NCBI RefSeq assembly: GCF_937873615.1 | Contig: NZ_CALMYP010000024.1 | Span: 1-64,000 of the forward strand | DNA: 64,000 nucleotides | Direction of reading: 5' to 3' | Source: an uncultured Paracoccus sp. | Lineage (GTDB): Bacteria > Pseudomonadota > Alphaproteobacteria > Rhodobacterales > Rhodobacteraceae | Made by a program: the position numbers and the translations under genes | Notes under the pieces: generated by a model | Told to the model about the DNA's origin: nothing | The model's input: the letters and a program-made list of their open reading frames with translations, nothing else | Database searches by the model: none | Shown: in pieces, positions 42,997 through 63,291 of the stretch | How the letters are laid out: each line of letters opens with the position of its first letter | Position numbering within the stretch: position 1 is the first letter of the stretch

Positions 42997-44903
42997 TTCG
43001 GGGCCTGCTTCATCGCCTCGGGCAGCCAGGTTGCCAGTTGCGGGAAGGCCACCAGCACCGCCACCATCAGCACCATGATCAGGAACATGGGCAGCGCCGT
43101 GCGGGCGATATAGCCCATGTCATGTTTGGTCATGCCCTGCAGCACGAACAGGTTGAAGCCCACCGGCGGGGTGATCTGCGCCATCTCGACCACGACGACG
43201 ACGAAGATGCCGAACCAGATCATGTCGATGCCGGCACCGCGCACCATCGGGTCGATGATCGCCATGGTCAGCACCACGGCGGAAATCCCGTCGAGGAACA
43301 TGCCGATGACGATATAGAACACCGTCAGCGCCACGATCAGCGCGACCGGCGACAGCTCCATCCCGCCGATCCAGGCGGCGAGCGTGCGGGGCACGCCGGT
43401 AAAGCCCATCGACAGGGTCAGGAAGCTCGCGCCCATGAGGATCAGCGCGATCATGGCCGAGGTGCGGGCGGCGCCCAGAAGGCTCTGGCTGAAACTTTCC
43501 CAGGTCAGCGAGCGCTGCGCCAGCGCCAGCACCAATGCGCCGACGACGCCGAAGGCGGCGGCCTCGGTCGCGGTGGCGAGGCCGACATACATGGAACCGA
43601 TGACGGTCACGATCTGCAGGATCACCGGGATCAGCAGGACCGAATTCTTCAGCGCGCCGATGAAGCCGAGGCGCGGCTCTCGCTCCGGGCGCTGATCGGG
43701 GCGGGCGAAGGACCAGCCGACGATATAGAGCATGAACATCCCCGCCAGCACGAGGCCCGGCAACACGCCGGCCATGAACAGGCTGGTGATGCTTTCCTTC
43801 ACCGTCACGCCATAGACGATCAGCGTCAGCGAGGGCGGGATCATCAGGCCGAGCGTGGCCGCCCCGGCCAGCGTGCCGATGATCATGAATTCGGGATAGC
43901 CGCGCTTGCGCAGTTCCGGGATGGACATCTTGCCGACCGTGGTCAGCGTCGCCGCCGACGATCCCGACACGGCGGCGAAGACCGTGCAGCCGACGACATT
44001 GGTGTGCAGAAGCCCGCCCGGCAACCCGCGCAACCAGGGGGCGAGGCCCTTGAACATGTCCTCGGACAGGCGGGTGCGGAACAGGATCTCTCCCATCCAG
44101 ATGAACAGCGGCAGCGAGGTCAGGGTCCAGCTTGACGAACTGGTCCAGACGGTGATCGCCATGGAACTGCCCGGATTGCGCGAGGTGAAGCCGATCATGC
44201 CCATATAGGCCACGCCCATCAGCGCCAGCCCGACCCAGAGCCCGGTGCCGAGCAGGAAGAACATCACGAACAGGAAGATGCCGATCTTCAGCCCGGTGGC
44301 GTCGCGGTCGAAGCCGGTCATCATCTGCAACGCGCCGTAGACGACCAGCAGGCAGGCGCCAAGAAAGACGAAGCGCCATTTGCGCGCGCCCAGCCGGTCG
44401 GTTTCCACCGGCACGCGCGGCGGATCGACGCCGAGGCTGTCGGTCAGCAGCACCCTTATCAGGTTGTCCAGCATCGCCAGCGCCATGACGCTGGTGCCGA
44501 TGGCCATGGAAAGCTGCGGGATCCACAAGGGCGTGGCGTCCTGCCCCTGCGAGACATCGCCGAAGCGGTAACTGGTGATCGGGGTCTGGATGGCGTTCCA
44601 GGCGAAGAACAGCATCACCAGGCTGCCGATGCCATAGCACCAGATCTCGACCGCACGGCGCGAATTGCCGGCACGGTCGATGAGCAGGCCGACGCGGATA
44701 TGCTCGTTATGCACGAAGGTATAGGCAAGCCCGAAGAACGAGGCCGAGGCCATGGCATAGCCGGCATAGGTGGCCCCGCCAGGCAGAAGCCCGCCCGACC
44801 ACCTGGCCACCATCTGCGCGATCACCAGCCCGAGGATCGCCAGAAGCGAGGTCGCGGCCAGAATGCCGGTGGCGGAATAAAGGGCGTCAAGCGCGCGTCG
44901 CAT
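42993..44903 (-). CDS. TRAP transporter permease, fused small and large subunits (DctQM)
   Basis: 636-residue inner-membrane protein. Residues 1-185 are a DctQ-type four-helix domain (with HNEHIRVGLLID), and residues about 190-636 a DctM-type domain with GSSAATLTTVGKMSIPELRKRGYP, LGLMIPPSLTLIVYGV and the VEMAQITPPVGFNLFVLQG segment of the sodium/substrate site. The fusion is common in TRAP systems. It follows the dctP gene after a strong intercistronic hairpin and is coupled to the downstream BASS carrier. Confidence 0.93.
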   Translation of the reverse strand: MRRALDALYSATGILAATSLLAILGLVIAQMVARWSGGLLPGGATYAGYAMASASFFGLAYTFVHNEHIRVGLLIDRAGNSRRAVEIWCYGIGSLVMLFFAWNAIQTPITSYRFGDVSQGQDATPLWIPQLSMAIGTSVMALAMLDNLIRVLLTDSLGVDPPRVPVETDRLGARKWRFVFLGACLLVVYGALQMMTGFDRDATGLKIGIFLFVMFFLLGTGLWVGLALMGVAYMGMIGFTSRNPGSSMAITVWTSSSSWTLTSLPLFIWMGEILFRTRLSEDMFKGLAPWLRGLPGGLLHTNVVGCTVFAAVSGSSAATLTTVGKMSIPELRKRGYPEFMIIGTLAGAATLGLMIPPSLTLIVYGVTVKESITSLFMAGVLPGLVLAGMFMLYIVGWSFARPDQRPEREPRLGFIGALKNSVLLIPVILQIVTVIGSMYVGLATATEAAAFGVVGALVLALAQRSLTWESFSQSLLGAARTSAMIALILMGASFLTLSMGFTGVPRTLAAWIGGMELSPVALIVALTVFYIVIGMFLDGISAVVLTMAIIDPMVRGAGIDMIWFGIFVVVVVEMAQITPPVGFNLFVLQGMTKHDMGYIARTALPMFLIMVLMVAVLVAFPQLATWLPEAMKQAPN

Positions 44904-44925
44904 CGGTATCCCCGTTCAGCAGAAG

Positions 44926-44955
44926 GGCCGGCGCGCAACTCGATGCGCGCCGGCC
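44926..44955 (-). promoter_or_regulatory. Intercistronic hairpin between dctP and dctQM
   Basis: Perfect 11-bp stem GGCCGGCGCGC / GCGCGCCGGCC with an eight-base loop, no T-run. Such hairpins between binding-protein and permease genes usually stabilise the upstream message and lower downstream expression, giving more binding protein than permease. Confidence 0.65.
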
Positions 44956-44992
44956 GGAAGGCGTTGTCAGCGAAAATGCCGGGGGACCGGGA

Positions 44993-45958
44993 TCATTCGG
45001 CCTTGAAGGCGTCGATGATGGCCTTGCCGTCATCGCCGGTGGCTTCCAGCCATTCATTGGTCATCTGCTCGCCGATCACGGCAAGATCGGCGGCCAGTTG
45101 CTCGGACGGTTCGGCCACGCTCATGCCGTTATCGGCCAACGTCTTCAGGAAACCGTCGCTGAGGGCGGCAGCCCGTTCCGAGCCGCGGGTCTGGGCGGTG
45201 GCGGCAGCAGTCTTGACGCAATCCTGCACCTCGGCCGGAAGGGCCTCCAGTGCGGCGGTATTGGCGAAGACGGTATTGCGCGGCAGCCAGGCCTTCACGT
45301 CGTAGAAATGGCTCATGTCTTCCCAGGCCTTTTCATCGACGCCGGTCGAGCCCGAGGAGATCATCGAAGCCACGACGCCGGTTGCCAGCGCCTGTTTCAG
45401 CTCGGCCGCCTCGACCTGGGTCGGGACCATGCCGGCCAGTTCGGCCACGCGGGCGGTCGAGGAGTTATAGGCGCGGAACTTGATCCCGGCCATGTCGGCC
45501 ACGCCGTTCACTTCCTTGTCGAAATACATCCCCTGCGCCGGCCACGGCACGGAATAAAGCAGCGTCGCCCCCTGATCGGCCAGGACCTTGGCCAGAACCG
45601 GCTCTGCCGCCGCGCGCAGCTTTTCGGATGCCTCGAAGGAACTGGCAAGGAAGGGCACCGAATCATAGCCGAAGATGGCGTTTTCATTGGCATGGGCGGA
45701 CAGCAGGCGTTCGCCGATCTGGGCGTCGCCGGTCTGGACGGCGCGCTTGATCTCGTCGCCCTTGAACAGCGAGCCGCCGGGATGGACGGTGATTTCCAAT
45801 GCACCGTTCGAGCAGGCCTTCACATCCTCGGCGAAGGCCACGGCGTTCTCGGTGTGGTAATTGTCCGAAGGATAGGCCACGGGCATATCCCAGTTTTCGG
45901 CACTGGCGGCGCCAGCCGCGACGGCAGCGGCAACGAGGGCGGGAATCGAGATGTTCAT
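44993..45958 (-). CDS. TRAP transporter substrate-binding protein (DctP)
   Basis: 321-residue periplasmic binding protein. A signal peptide (ISIPALVAAAVAAGAASA) precedes the mature start ENWDMPVAYPSDNYHTEN. The conserved ligand-binding Arg lies in MAGIKFRAYNSSTARVAELAG near residue 147, and VQTGDAQIGERLLSAHANEN corresponds to the first conserved block. Second gene of a co-directional series after the D-amino-acid dehydrogenase. Ligand not known; neighbours point to an amino acid or related acid. Confidence 0.92.
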   Translation of the reverse strand: MNISIPALVAAAVAAGAASAENWDMPVAYPSDNYHTENAVAFAEDVKACSNGALEITVHPGGSLFKGDEIKRAVQTGDAQIGERLLSAHANENAIFGYDSVPFLASSFEASEKLRAAAEPVLAKVLADQGATLLYSVPWPAQGMYFDKEVNGVADMAGIKFRAYNSSTARVAELAGMVPTQVEAAELKQALATGVVASMISSGSTGVDEKAWEDMSHFYDVKAWLPRNTVFANTAALEALPAEVQDCVKTAAATAQTRGSERAAALSDGFLKTLADNGMSVAEPSEQLAADLAVIGEQMTNEWLEATGDDGKAIIDAFKAE

Positions 45959-60921: not shown

Positions 60922-61821
60922 TCAGATCAACCCGTTGGCCTTGAGAAAACCGCGCATCTTCGCCTGCTGCGCCTCGGTCAGCGGCCAGGCCGAAGGCGGG
61001 CGCGTCGGGCCGCAATCGTCGCCCATTGCCTGCAGCGCGGCCTTGACGCCGGTGACATTGGTGCCGTTCATTTCCTCGGCGCGGATATCCTCGAAGGCGC
61101 GCATCCCGGCGATCAGGGCATTGGCGCGGGCGTAATCCCCGGCCTCCAGCGCGGCATGGATCGCGAGCGAGCGTTCCGGCCAGAGATTGATCAGCCCCGA
61201 GGTGAAGCCGCGCGCGCCCACCGCATAGAAGCTGGGCGCCCAGACCTCGGCCAGCCCGCCAACCCAGACGATATCCGGATCGCAGGCCTCTTTCGCCTCG
61301 GCCAGGCGCATCGGGTTCGGCGTCGCCCATTTGACGCCCTTGACGCCGGGGGCGGAACAGAAGGCCTCGATGGATTTCGTGCCCACCGCGTCGTTGCGCA
61401 GATAGAGCATCATCGGCAGCCCGCCCGAGGCATCGGCGATGGCCTTGAGGTAATCGACCACGCCGCGCGGGGCGGTGAACGGGTCCGGCGGCTGGTGGAT
61501 CATCAGCGCCGCGGCCCCGGCATCGGCACTGGCCCGGGCCAGCCGCACCGCGTCGCGGATGCCGCGCCCGACGCCGGCCAGCACCGGCGCCCGGCCCCCG
61601 ACCATGTCGCAGACGGCCCCGGCCATGGCGCAGGCCTCGTCCGTGGTGAGCGCGTAGAATTCGCCGGTATTGCCGTTCACAACCGGCATGTGCAGCCCGG
61701 CCCCAAGCGCGCGGTCGATGATCGGGACCAGCCGGTCGGGCGCGATCTCTCCATCGTCGCCGTAAGGGGTCACCAGAATGCCGGAAATGCCGGTCAGGGC
61801 TTCATCGAGTGTCAATGTCAT
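60922..61821 (-). CDS. DHDPS-family sugar-acid dehydratase/aldolase
   Basis: 299-residue TIM barrel of the dihydrodipicolinate synthase/N-acetylneuraminate lyase family. VVNGNTGEFYALTTDE near residue 47, the proton-relay Tyr in MLYLRND (Tyr140) and the Schiff-base Lys in VKGVKWATPN (Lys164) are intact. Context next to an enolase-superfamily enzyme and a uronate dehydrogenase suggests a keto-deoxy sugar-acid dehydratase rather than DapA. GGAG precedes ATG 61821 (ATG 61824 also possible). It lies 12 bases after the enolase-family gene. Confidence 0.82.
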   Translation of the reverse strand: MTLTLDEALTGISGILVTPYGDDGEIAPDRLVPIIDRALGAGLHMPVVNGNTGEFYALTTDEACAMAGAVCDMVGGRAPVLAGVGRGIRDAVRLARASADAGAAALMIHQPPDPFTAPRGVVDYLKAIADASGGLPMMLYLRNDAVGTKSIEAFCSAPGVKGVKWATPNPMRLAEAKEACDPDIVWVGGLAEVWAPSFYAVGARGFTSGLINLWPERSLAIHAALEAGDYARANALIAGMRAFEDIRAEEMNGTNVTGVKAALQAMGDDCGPTRPPSAWPLTEAQQAKMRGFLKANGLI

Positions 61822-61833
61822 CATCTTCTCCAA

Positions 61834-62997
61834 TCAATCCGAGACATAGCCCGCGCCATGCGCGGCCCGGTCCCATTCCACCAGCGGCGCGCGCAGGGCT
61901 TCCAGCGCGTCCTCGTCCAGTTCCATGCCAAGGCCGGGGCCTTCGGGCAAAACGATGCGGTTGCCCTCGAAACGGATGCGCTTTTTCACGATATCCTCGA
62001 CGTAAAGCAGCGGCCCGACCGGGTCCGAGGCGGCGGACAGTTCGGCCATCGACACCCCCAGATGCGCCTGCGCCGAAGTGCCGATGGAAAGCTCCTGCGT
62101 GGTTCCGATCAGCGCCTTGATCCCGGCGAGTTCGGCCAGATGCGCCAGCTTCTTCGCCGGCAGGATGCCGCCCGAATTCACCGTGATGTTGAAGATGTCG
62201 ACCGCGCCCGCCCGGATCAGCGCCATCGCCTGCGCGGCGGATGAGGCATGTTCGCAGACATCGGCCTCGACCCGGCGGCGGATCTCGGCCATGCCGGCCA
62301 GATCCTCGCGCCAGCTGACGCTTTCGATCACCTCGAAGCCGAAGGGCTTCAGGCACTCATAGGCGCGCAGCACGTCCTTCCAGTAATGGCGGGCCTGGAA
62401 ATCCAGCGCCTTGAGGATGACGCGTTGCCCGAAACGGTCGCGCAAAGCGGTCAGGAATTTCTCGTCCTTGTCGAAATCGACCCCGACATAATAACGGAAG
62501 CGGGAAATCCCCTGATCCAGAAGCTCCTGAATATAGCCGAGATTGCGTTCGTAATCGGCCTCGGCCTTCACCTGGAACAGCGGATAGCAGATCTCGATCC
62601 CGTCGCGCACGCGGCCGCCGAACAGGTCGCAGGCCGGCACATCCAGCGCCTTGCCCATGATGTCATAGCACGCCATGTCGATGCCCGCCGCGATCTGCGA
62701 GCCGGGCGTGAAGGGCGGATAGCTGGGCGCCGAGGCGAAGTAGTTATGCAGGTAATTCGCCATCTCGCGATGCATCGCCTCGATCGCGAAAGGGTCGCGG
62801 CCCAGCACGACCTTTTCGATTCCCATGCGCACGGCCTCGATATCGGGCATGTACATACGGTACATGTCGAGATCCGAAATCTCGCCCAGACCCGTCACCC
62901 CTTCATCGGTATGCATCTGCAGGATCAGGTGCGAACTGATGGAACCTGTGCGCCGATGCGTCTGGATCGGCGTCAGCGTGATACCCGAGATCTTCAT
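61834..62997 (-). CDS. Mandelate racemase/muconate lactonizing enzyme family protein
   Basis: 387-residue enolase-superfamily protein: capping domain with GEISDLDMYRMYMPD, barrel with GIDMACYDIMGKALDVPACDLFGG. Predicted magnesium ligands are Asp199 (ALDFQ), Glu225 (VIESVSW) and Glu249 (VCEHAS). However the usual K-x-K on the second barrel strand reads RFRYYVG (Arg168, Tyr170), and the lysine of MLE-type enzymes on strand six is replaced (FNITVNSGG). Activity is thus unclear; context suggests an aldarolactone or sugar-acid isomerase/dehydratase. Its ATG follows the stop of the dctM remnant directly. Confidence 0.8.
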   Translation of the reverse strand: MKISGITLTPIQTHRRTGSISSHLILQMHTDEGVTGLGEISDLDMYRMYMPDIEAVRMGIEKVVLGRDPFAIEAMHREMANYLHNYFASAPSYPPFTPGSQIAAGIDMACYDIMGKALDVPACDLFGGRVRDGIEICYPLFQVKAEADYERNLGYIQELLDQGISRFRYYVGVDFDKDEKFLTALRDRFGQRVILKALDFQARHYWKDVLRAYECLKPFGFEVIESVSWREDLAGMAEIRRRVEADVCEHASSAAQAMALIRAGAVDIFNITVNSGGILPAKKLAHLAELAGIKALIGTTQELSIGTSAQAHLGVSMAELSAASDPVGPLLYVEDIVKKRIRFEGNRIVLPEGPGLGMELDEDALEALRAPLVEWDRAAHGAGYVSD

Positions 62998-63199
62998 TCA
63001 GTCCCCCAGCAGCAGATTGGGCAGCCACAGCGAAATCTGCGGCACATAGGTCACCAGCATCCATCGCGATCGAGCCGGGATAATCCGGCACATGCAGGTT
63101 CCAGCCGCGCTGGTCGCGGGCCTCTGCCGCGACGGCAAGACCCAGCACCGAGACCGAGGCCGGTATGGCCATACGGTCAAGTTTCCAGAACATGGGCAT
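62998..63199 (-). pseudogene. TRAP transporter deletion remnant (dctP start fused to dctM end)
   Basis: Behind a good ribosome binding site (GAGGAGTGA) an ATG opens MPMFWKLDRMAIPAS with a hydrophobic signal segment and RDQRGWNLHVPDYPGSIAMD, the mature N-terminus of a DctP of the WNLH/DYP type. At about 63058 the homology stops; in the next frame the sequence reads MLVTYVPQISLWLPNLLLGD and a stop, which is the C-terminal end of a DctM. The middle of dctP, all of dctQ and most of dctM are missing. The final TGA abuts the enolase-family ATG as an intact dctM would. Confidence 0.8.
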
Positions 63200-63251
63200 C
63201 CGTCACTCCTCTGCCGTTGTCGAAAAGGCCTTACTCCCCAGCCTTTCGGGA

Positions 63252-63279
63252 AGTGTAGGAAGGGCGGGTGAGATGTCAA
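63252..63279 (-). promoter_or_regulatory. Promoter of the TRAP remnant/sugar-acid operon
   Basis: On the minus strand TTGACA (63279-63274) and TACACT (63257-63252) are separated by 16 bases, a near-consensus sigma-70 promoter. The -35 hexamer forms one arm of the TGTCAA/TTGACA operator. Confidence 0.6.
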
Positions 63280-63291
63280 TCATATTTGACA
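63274..63291. promoter_or_regulatory. Operator palindrome at the uronate locus
   Basis: TGTCAA-TCATAT-TTGACA, a perfect 6-6-6 palindrome covering the -35 of the leftward promoter. This placement predicts repression by a dimeric regulator such as a GntR-family protein; none is encoded in the window. Confidence 0.6.

Follow-up and report, generated by a model that had tools for sequence, protein, structure and literature searches.

An apparent deletion scar of a TRAP importer operon in a sugar-acid gene cluster of an uncultured Paracoccus

Two ends of a TRAP operon upstream of an enolase-superfamily gene

The window studied here is a stretch of 64,000 nucleotides from an uncultured Paracoccus sp.; its contig continues past the window end, and coordinates beyond 64,000 are contig coordinates. 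We found that the 202 bases preceding an enolase-superfamily gene (63199-62998, minus strand) fall into two pieces, each in a frame of its own. Judged by comparison with intact operons of relatives, they read as the remnant of a TRAP importer operon removed by a deletion of ~2.68 kb. Minus-strand translation from 63199 gives MPMFWKLDRMAIPASVSVLGLAVAAEARDQRGWNLHVPDYPGSIAM (the first piece, the dctP remnant), and the translation ending at 62998 gives MLVTYVPQISLWLPNLLLGD followed by a stop (the second piece, the dctM remnant). The two short open frames that span the scar are not genes in their own right. It is highly probable that one deletion of this size left the scar and that the loss was tolerated because a TctAB importer in the same cluster serves the same or overlapping sugar acids.

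Table 1. Features of the scar and of the surrounding cluster (positions beyond 64,000 are on the contig)
Feature	Position	Strand	Evidence
DHDPS-family gene, 5-dehydro-4-deoxyglucarate-dehydratase-like, intact	60922..61833	-	PF00701 E 3e-41; 86% to L061
Enolase-superfamily (MR_MLE) dehydratase-type gene, intact, 387 aa	61834..62997	-	PF13378 E 1e-32; PF02746 E 2e-10
dctM remnant: last 20 codons and stop TGA, abuts next start codon	62998..63060	-	16/20 residues as in L021 DctM C-terminus
Ribosome-binding site GGGGGA of enolase-family gene, within dctM remnant	63002..63007	-	read from sequence
Deletion junction, 2-bp overlap GA	63059..63062	-	both arms of L021 and L026 compared base by base
dctP remnant: start codon, signal peptide, first mature residues, 46 codons	63061..63199	-	tblastn vs L021/L026; own-genome search
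Ribosome-binding site GAGGAG of former dctP	63206..63211	-	read from sequence
Promoter-like site TTGACA-16-TACACT, sigma-70-like, upstream of remnant	63252..63279	-	suggestive only
Inverted repeat TGTCAAATATGATTGACA, overlaps -35 of promoter-like site, possible operator	63274..63291	not applicable	sequence
NAD-dependent epimerase/dehydrogenase gene, divergent	63502..64317 (past window end)	+	PF01370 E 1e-16
GntR/FCD regulator	64314-65039	-	
SMP-30-type lactonase	65096-65968	+	
GDSL/SGNH hydrolase	65965-66600	-	
LacI-type regulator	66620-67699	-	
TctA	67706-69202	-	PF01970
TctB	69216-69635	-	PF07331
TctAB-associated binding protein	about 69715-70764	-	no Pfam family
IlvD/EDD-type dehydratase	70970-72736	+	above NCBIfam L-arabinonate dehydratase cut-off, 1101.6 vs 882 bits
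Aldehyde dehydrogenase	72752-74266	+	
RraA-type gene	74278-74988	+	

A scan of the enolase-family protein against genome contigs returned nine loci, seven of them at 78–81% identity. Two loci, L021 (Mesorhizobium microcysteis) and L026 (an Aquamicrobium MAG), carry an intact dctP-dctQ-dctM directly before the orthologous enolase-superfamily gene; in L021 all three subunits are recognized by Pfam (DctP 275 bits, DctQ 71 bits, DctM 374 bits). The 46-residue DctP piece aligns over its whole length, start on start, with the DctP of L021 (tblastn, 67% identity, E 1e-16) and of L026 (59%, E 2e-11). Conversely, the intact L021 DctP used as a query against the window's own genome matched the scar itself (65%, E 4e-13). 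The DctM tail shares 16 of its 20 residues with the C-terminus of the L021 DctM, a number reached by none of 100,000 shuffles (best 9). Pfam and NCBIfam scans of both pieces gave no meaningful match (the sole row was a sub-threshold Lipoxygenase, E 0.047) because both are too short; the identification therefore rests on the intact orthologous operons. With similarity to DctP and DctM found through these operons, the original prediction of a dctP start joined out of frame to a dctM end is confirmed.

The L021 and L026 operons have the same gene order and are homologous at both ends to the scar, which occupies the orthologous place. Since the two pieces align, in order, with the dctP start and the dctM end of one operon, one deletion explains the join, as had been proposed. 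Whereas the TRAP genes of both relatives are intact, the window keeps only 46 of 328 codons of the DctP-type binding protein (PF03480, with no Pfam match left) and 20 of 428 codons of DctM, and dctQ is absent. By comparison, a single deletion of ~2.68 kb would have taken dctP from codon 47 to its end, all of dctQ, and dctM except for its last 20 codons. Aligned base by base, the window is short of 2,676 bp versus L021 and versus L026, at the same offset in both. Hence the predicted loss of dctP-dctQ-dctM stands but not its size of about 3 kb; likewise, the frame does change, but at the junction (63062-63059) and not at about 63058. Only GA (2 bp) is common to both arms at the junction, and on the relatives' sequence a longer repeat is absent; the join was illegitimate. 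L021 and L026 have ~15 bases between the dctM stop and the enolase-family start; in the window the two are directly adjacent (62998-63000), and a further small change may thus have occurred close to the scar.

We consider it highly improbable that dctPQM is still present in the isolate or population and that the assembler, or the library, joined its two ends wrongly. Such an error is conceivable in a draft of 74 contigs with an estimated contamination of 1.9%. However, the junction sits 38 kb deep in a contig of 101,654 bases, and with only 2 bp common to the ends there is no repeat for the assembler to collapse on. Moreover, the lost genes occur on no other contig above 42% identity, though completeness is 99.63%: nothing in the assembly closely resembles the lost part, the best other DctP being 37% and the best DctM 42% identical. 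The genome (3.86 Mb) is TRAP-rich, with 23 matches for DctP and 33 match rows for DctM, where some rows are pieces of one gene; one DctP and one DctM match lie inside the window at about 43035-45868.

Expression signals and constraint on the downstream genes

The original prediction held that the deletion had kept the promoter, the ribosome-binding site and the downstream genes. The last two are in place. The promoter is represented by a promoter-like site that does not exceed chance (1 found versus a shuffle mean of 0.5, sd 0.7). The inverted repeat overlapping this site was considered as an operator, but the relatives do not have the exact pattern TGTCA-N6 to N9-TGACA in their equivalent upstream sequence, and conservation lends the idea no support. 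The enolase- and DHDPS-family genes are now the first to remain intact downstream of the old dctP leader, so transcription from the original promoter probably still reaches them. The dN/dS of the enolase-family gene is 0.08–0.19 in five comparisons; such pairwise values average over the time before the deletion and therefore reflect long-run constraint of this gene, not selection since the deletion.

One could also expect the remnant to have been kept as a short leader regulating translation of the enolase-family gene. A frame of 98 codons from 63199 is indeed open, runs over the enolase-family start and stops at 62903, and the mature-part residues of the dctP remnant (AEAR-QRGWNLHVPDYPGSIAM) are well kept. 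However, this conservation is inherited from before the deletion, past the junction the leader frame is off-frame and matches nothing, and no relative has the same frame. We give this possibility almost no credence.

The surrounding cluster and its candidate second importer

The genes around the scar appear to form a divergently transcribed cluster for sugar-acid oxidation and dehydration. As in the window's cluster, the neighbors in L021 and L026 include divergent epimerase-type, GntR and SMP-30 genes. The window's epimerase/dehydrogenase gene is 57–62% identical to its counterpart beside dctP in these two loci and is, by context, putatively uronate-dehydrogenase-like. The DHDPS-family gene scores below the NCBIfam cut-off (NF002958, 134 versus 278 bits). 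The name RraA for the gene at the far end is our own assumption from its sequence and does not come from a family scan. Among solved structures, 3hpf/2oqy matches the enolase-family protein best (294 bits); it is deposited as 'Muconate cycloisomerase', and we take it to be the galactarate dehydratase of Oceanobacillus iheyensis. A literature search found no primary paper on the galactarate dehydratase. The closest solved relatives of the L021 DctP are 4p1l/4p3l and 4pf8. These presumably bind hexuronates; in a literature search on the ligands of 4p3l and 4pf8 neither code was found.

Just past the window end, the same cluster contains an importer of another family, the tripartite tricarboxylate transporters (TTT), in a module of LacI, TctA, TctB and binding-protein genes (contig 66620-70764). 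TctA (PF01970, 437.5 bits) and TctB (PF07331, 50.3 bits) both score above the cut-off. The binding protein is unusual: it matches neither PF03401, the TctC type, nor any other Pfam family, resembles the TctC of L023 weakly (23%, E 9e-10) and has a weak TAXI match under the cut-off. When a profile of six orthologs of this protein was searched against the PDB, a binding protein of the TTT family was the sole match, and a weak one (E 0.028). Judging by gene order in relatives, the TctA-TctB-binding-protein importer may take up the same or overlapping sugar acids as the lost TRAP system. However, this TctA shares only 40–42% identity with its counterparts in enolase-family clusters elsewhere, and the binding protein falls in no Pfam family, so that the same substrate is not assured. 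The original prediction had left uptake to another system or to decay of the locus; an intact TctAB importer with its binding protein in the cluster favors the former.

Importers in related clusters

We compared the importers of eight fetched enolase-family clusters (L021-L027 and L052). Two carry TRAP (L021 and L026) and six carry TctABC (L022, L023, L024, L025, L027 and L052); none has both (E 1e-5). Since most of these clusters carry TctABC and not TRAP, the enolase-family gene often works without TRAP.

Orthologs of the TctAB-associated binding protein were found in five of 124 other genus genomes (G037, G066, G049, G081 and G115) at 71–77% identity, each with LacI, TctA, TctB and an IlvD-type gene, and their TctA is 89–91% identical to that of the window's cluster. 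In all five the module adjoins an IlvD-type L-arabinonate dehydratase and a DHDPS-family gene, and full aldehyde dehydrogenase and RraA-type genes were present in four of the five stretches read. These LacI-TctABC/L-arabinonate dehydratase clusters thus have the importer module and the catabolic genes of the window's cluster. Unlike the window, they lack the enolase-family gene and, in the stretches read, any TRAP remnant; the three-gene TRAP did not turn up in their 15-kb stretches. The window's cluster therefore pairs the TctAB module of its genus relatives with a segment of the TRAP/enolase type seen in L021 and L026, but with its TRAP since lost.

An intact copy of the lost operon was sought in the genus, as the original prediction had called for, and none was found. 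The enolase-family protein has no ortholog in the 124 other genus genomes (best 28%), one in 393 other family genomes (G163, 63%) and none at E 1e-100 in 384 other class genomes. Relatives of the DctP at E 1e-60 occur in 65 of 125 genus genomes, at no more than 52% identity among full-length rows and 56% over a partial row. No cluster gene lies within 1.5 kb of any of the best ten of these genus relatives, which hence belong to other TRAP systems.

Tentatively, and at a little under even chances, the locus may preserve an importer swap in progress. The ancestor would have had both TRAP and TctABC for overlapping sugar acids, a one-step deletion of TRAP would have put the enolase-family dehydratase behind the importer promoter, and the unusual TctAB binding protein would now serve alone.

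Alternatively, the locus could be decaying, with the downstream genes being unselected leftovers of a lost importer and the next to go. We regard this as rather unlikely. It would fit the distribution of the enolase-family gene, which has no ortholog in the 124 other genus genomes, and the state of G037 (L061), in which the epimerase-type, GntR and SMP-30 genes are ordered as in the window. In G037 only 445 bp separate the DHDPS-family and epimerase-type genes (L061:1014-1460), with a trace of neither TRAP nor the enolase-family gene: the remnant search gave nothing better than E 0.2. The segment with both was either lost whole or never present there, and if G037 never had this insert, it is no example of decay. 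Furthermore, the window's enolase-family gene is intact, full length and 81% identical to all its nearest relatives, including those with working importers; the enzyme genes of the cluster have open, full-length frames; and five of the seven nearest relatives have TctABC without TRAP beside the enolase-family gene. Loss of TRAP tolerated because a second importer would serve the cluster accords better with these observations.

Remnants of genes and displacement of importers are both familiar; the finding is real and well supported but ordinary. In PMC5507952, TctABC is predicted in Halomonas for galactarate/glucarate uptake and TRAP for L-arabinonate and hexuronates, and non-orthologous displacement of importers (TRAP, TTT and ABC families) in sugar-acid clusters is described as common. 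Displacement of importer families is usually inferred across genomes, and that in Halomonas from different genomes. Here, in contrast, what is left of the lost importer still sits next to an intact one from a different family, and the swap can therefore be tested directly. Among TRAP ligands, PMC5812351 names D-glucuronate/D-galacturonate and cites GaaPQM of Agrobacterium. A literature search for importer-deletion scars found only unrelated work, which is no proof of absence in print. For annotation, the implication is that this TRAP system should not be ascribed to the cluster.

Among plasmid records, none covers 80% of the query, and the best, a plasmid of Martelella mediterranea, aligns with it over the enolase-family gene alone. 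This plasmid, from the same genus as L022, provides a ninth case of the importer comparison: TctABC lies beside its enolase-family gene, and a second TctABC is found further on.
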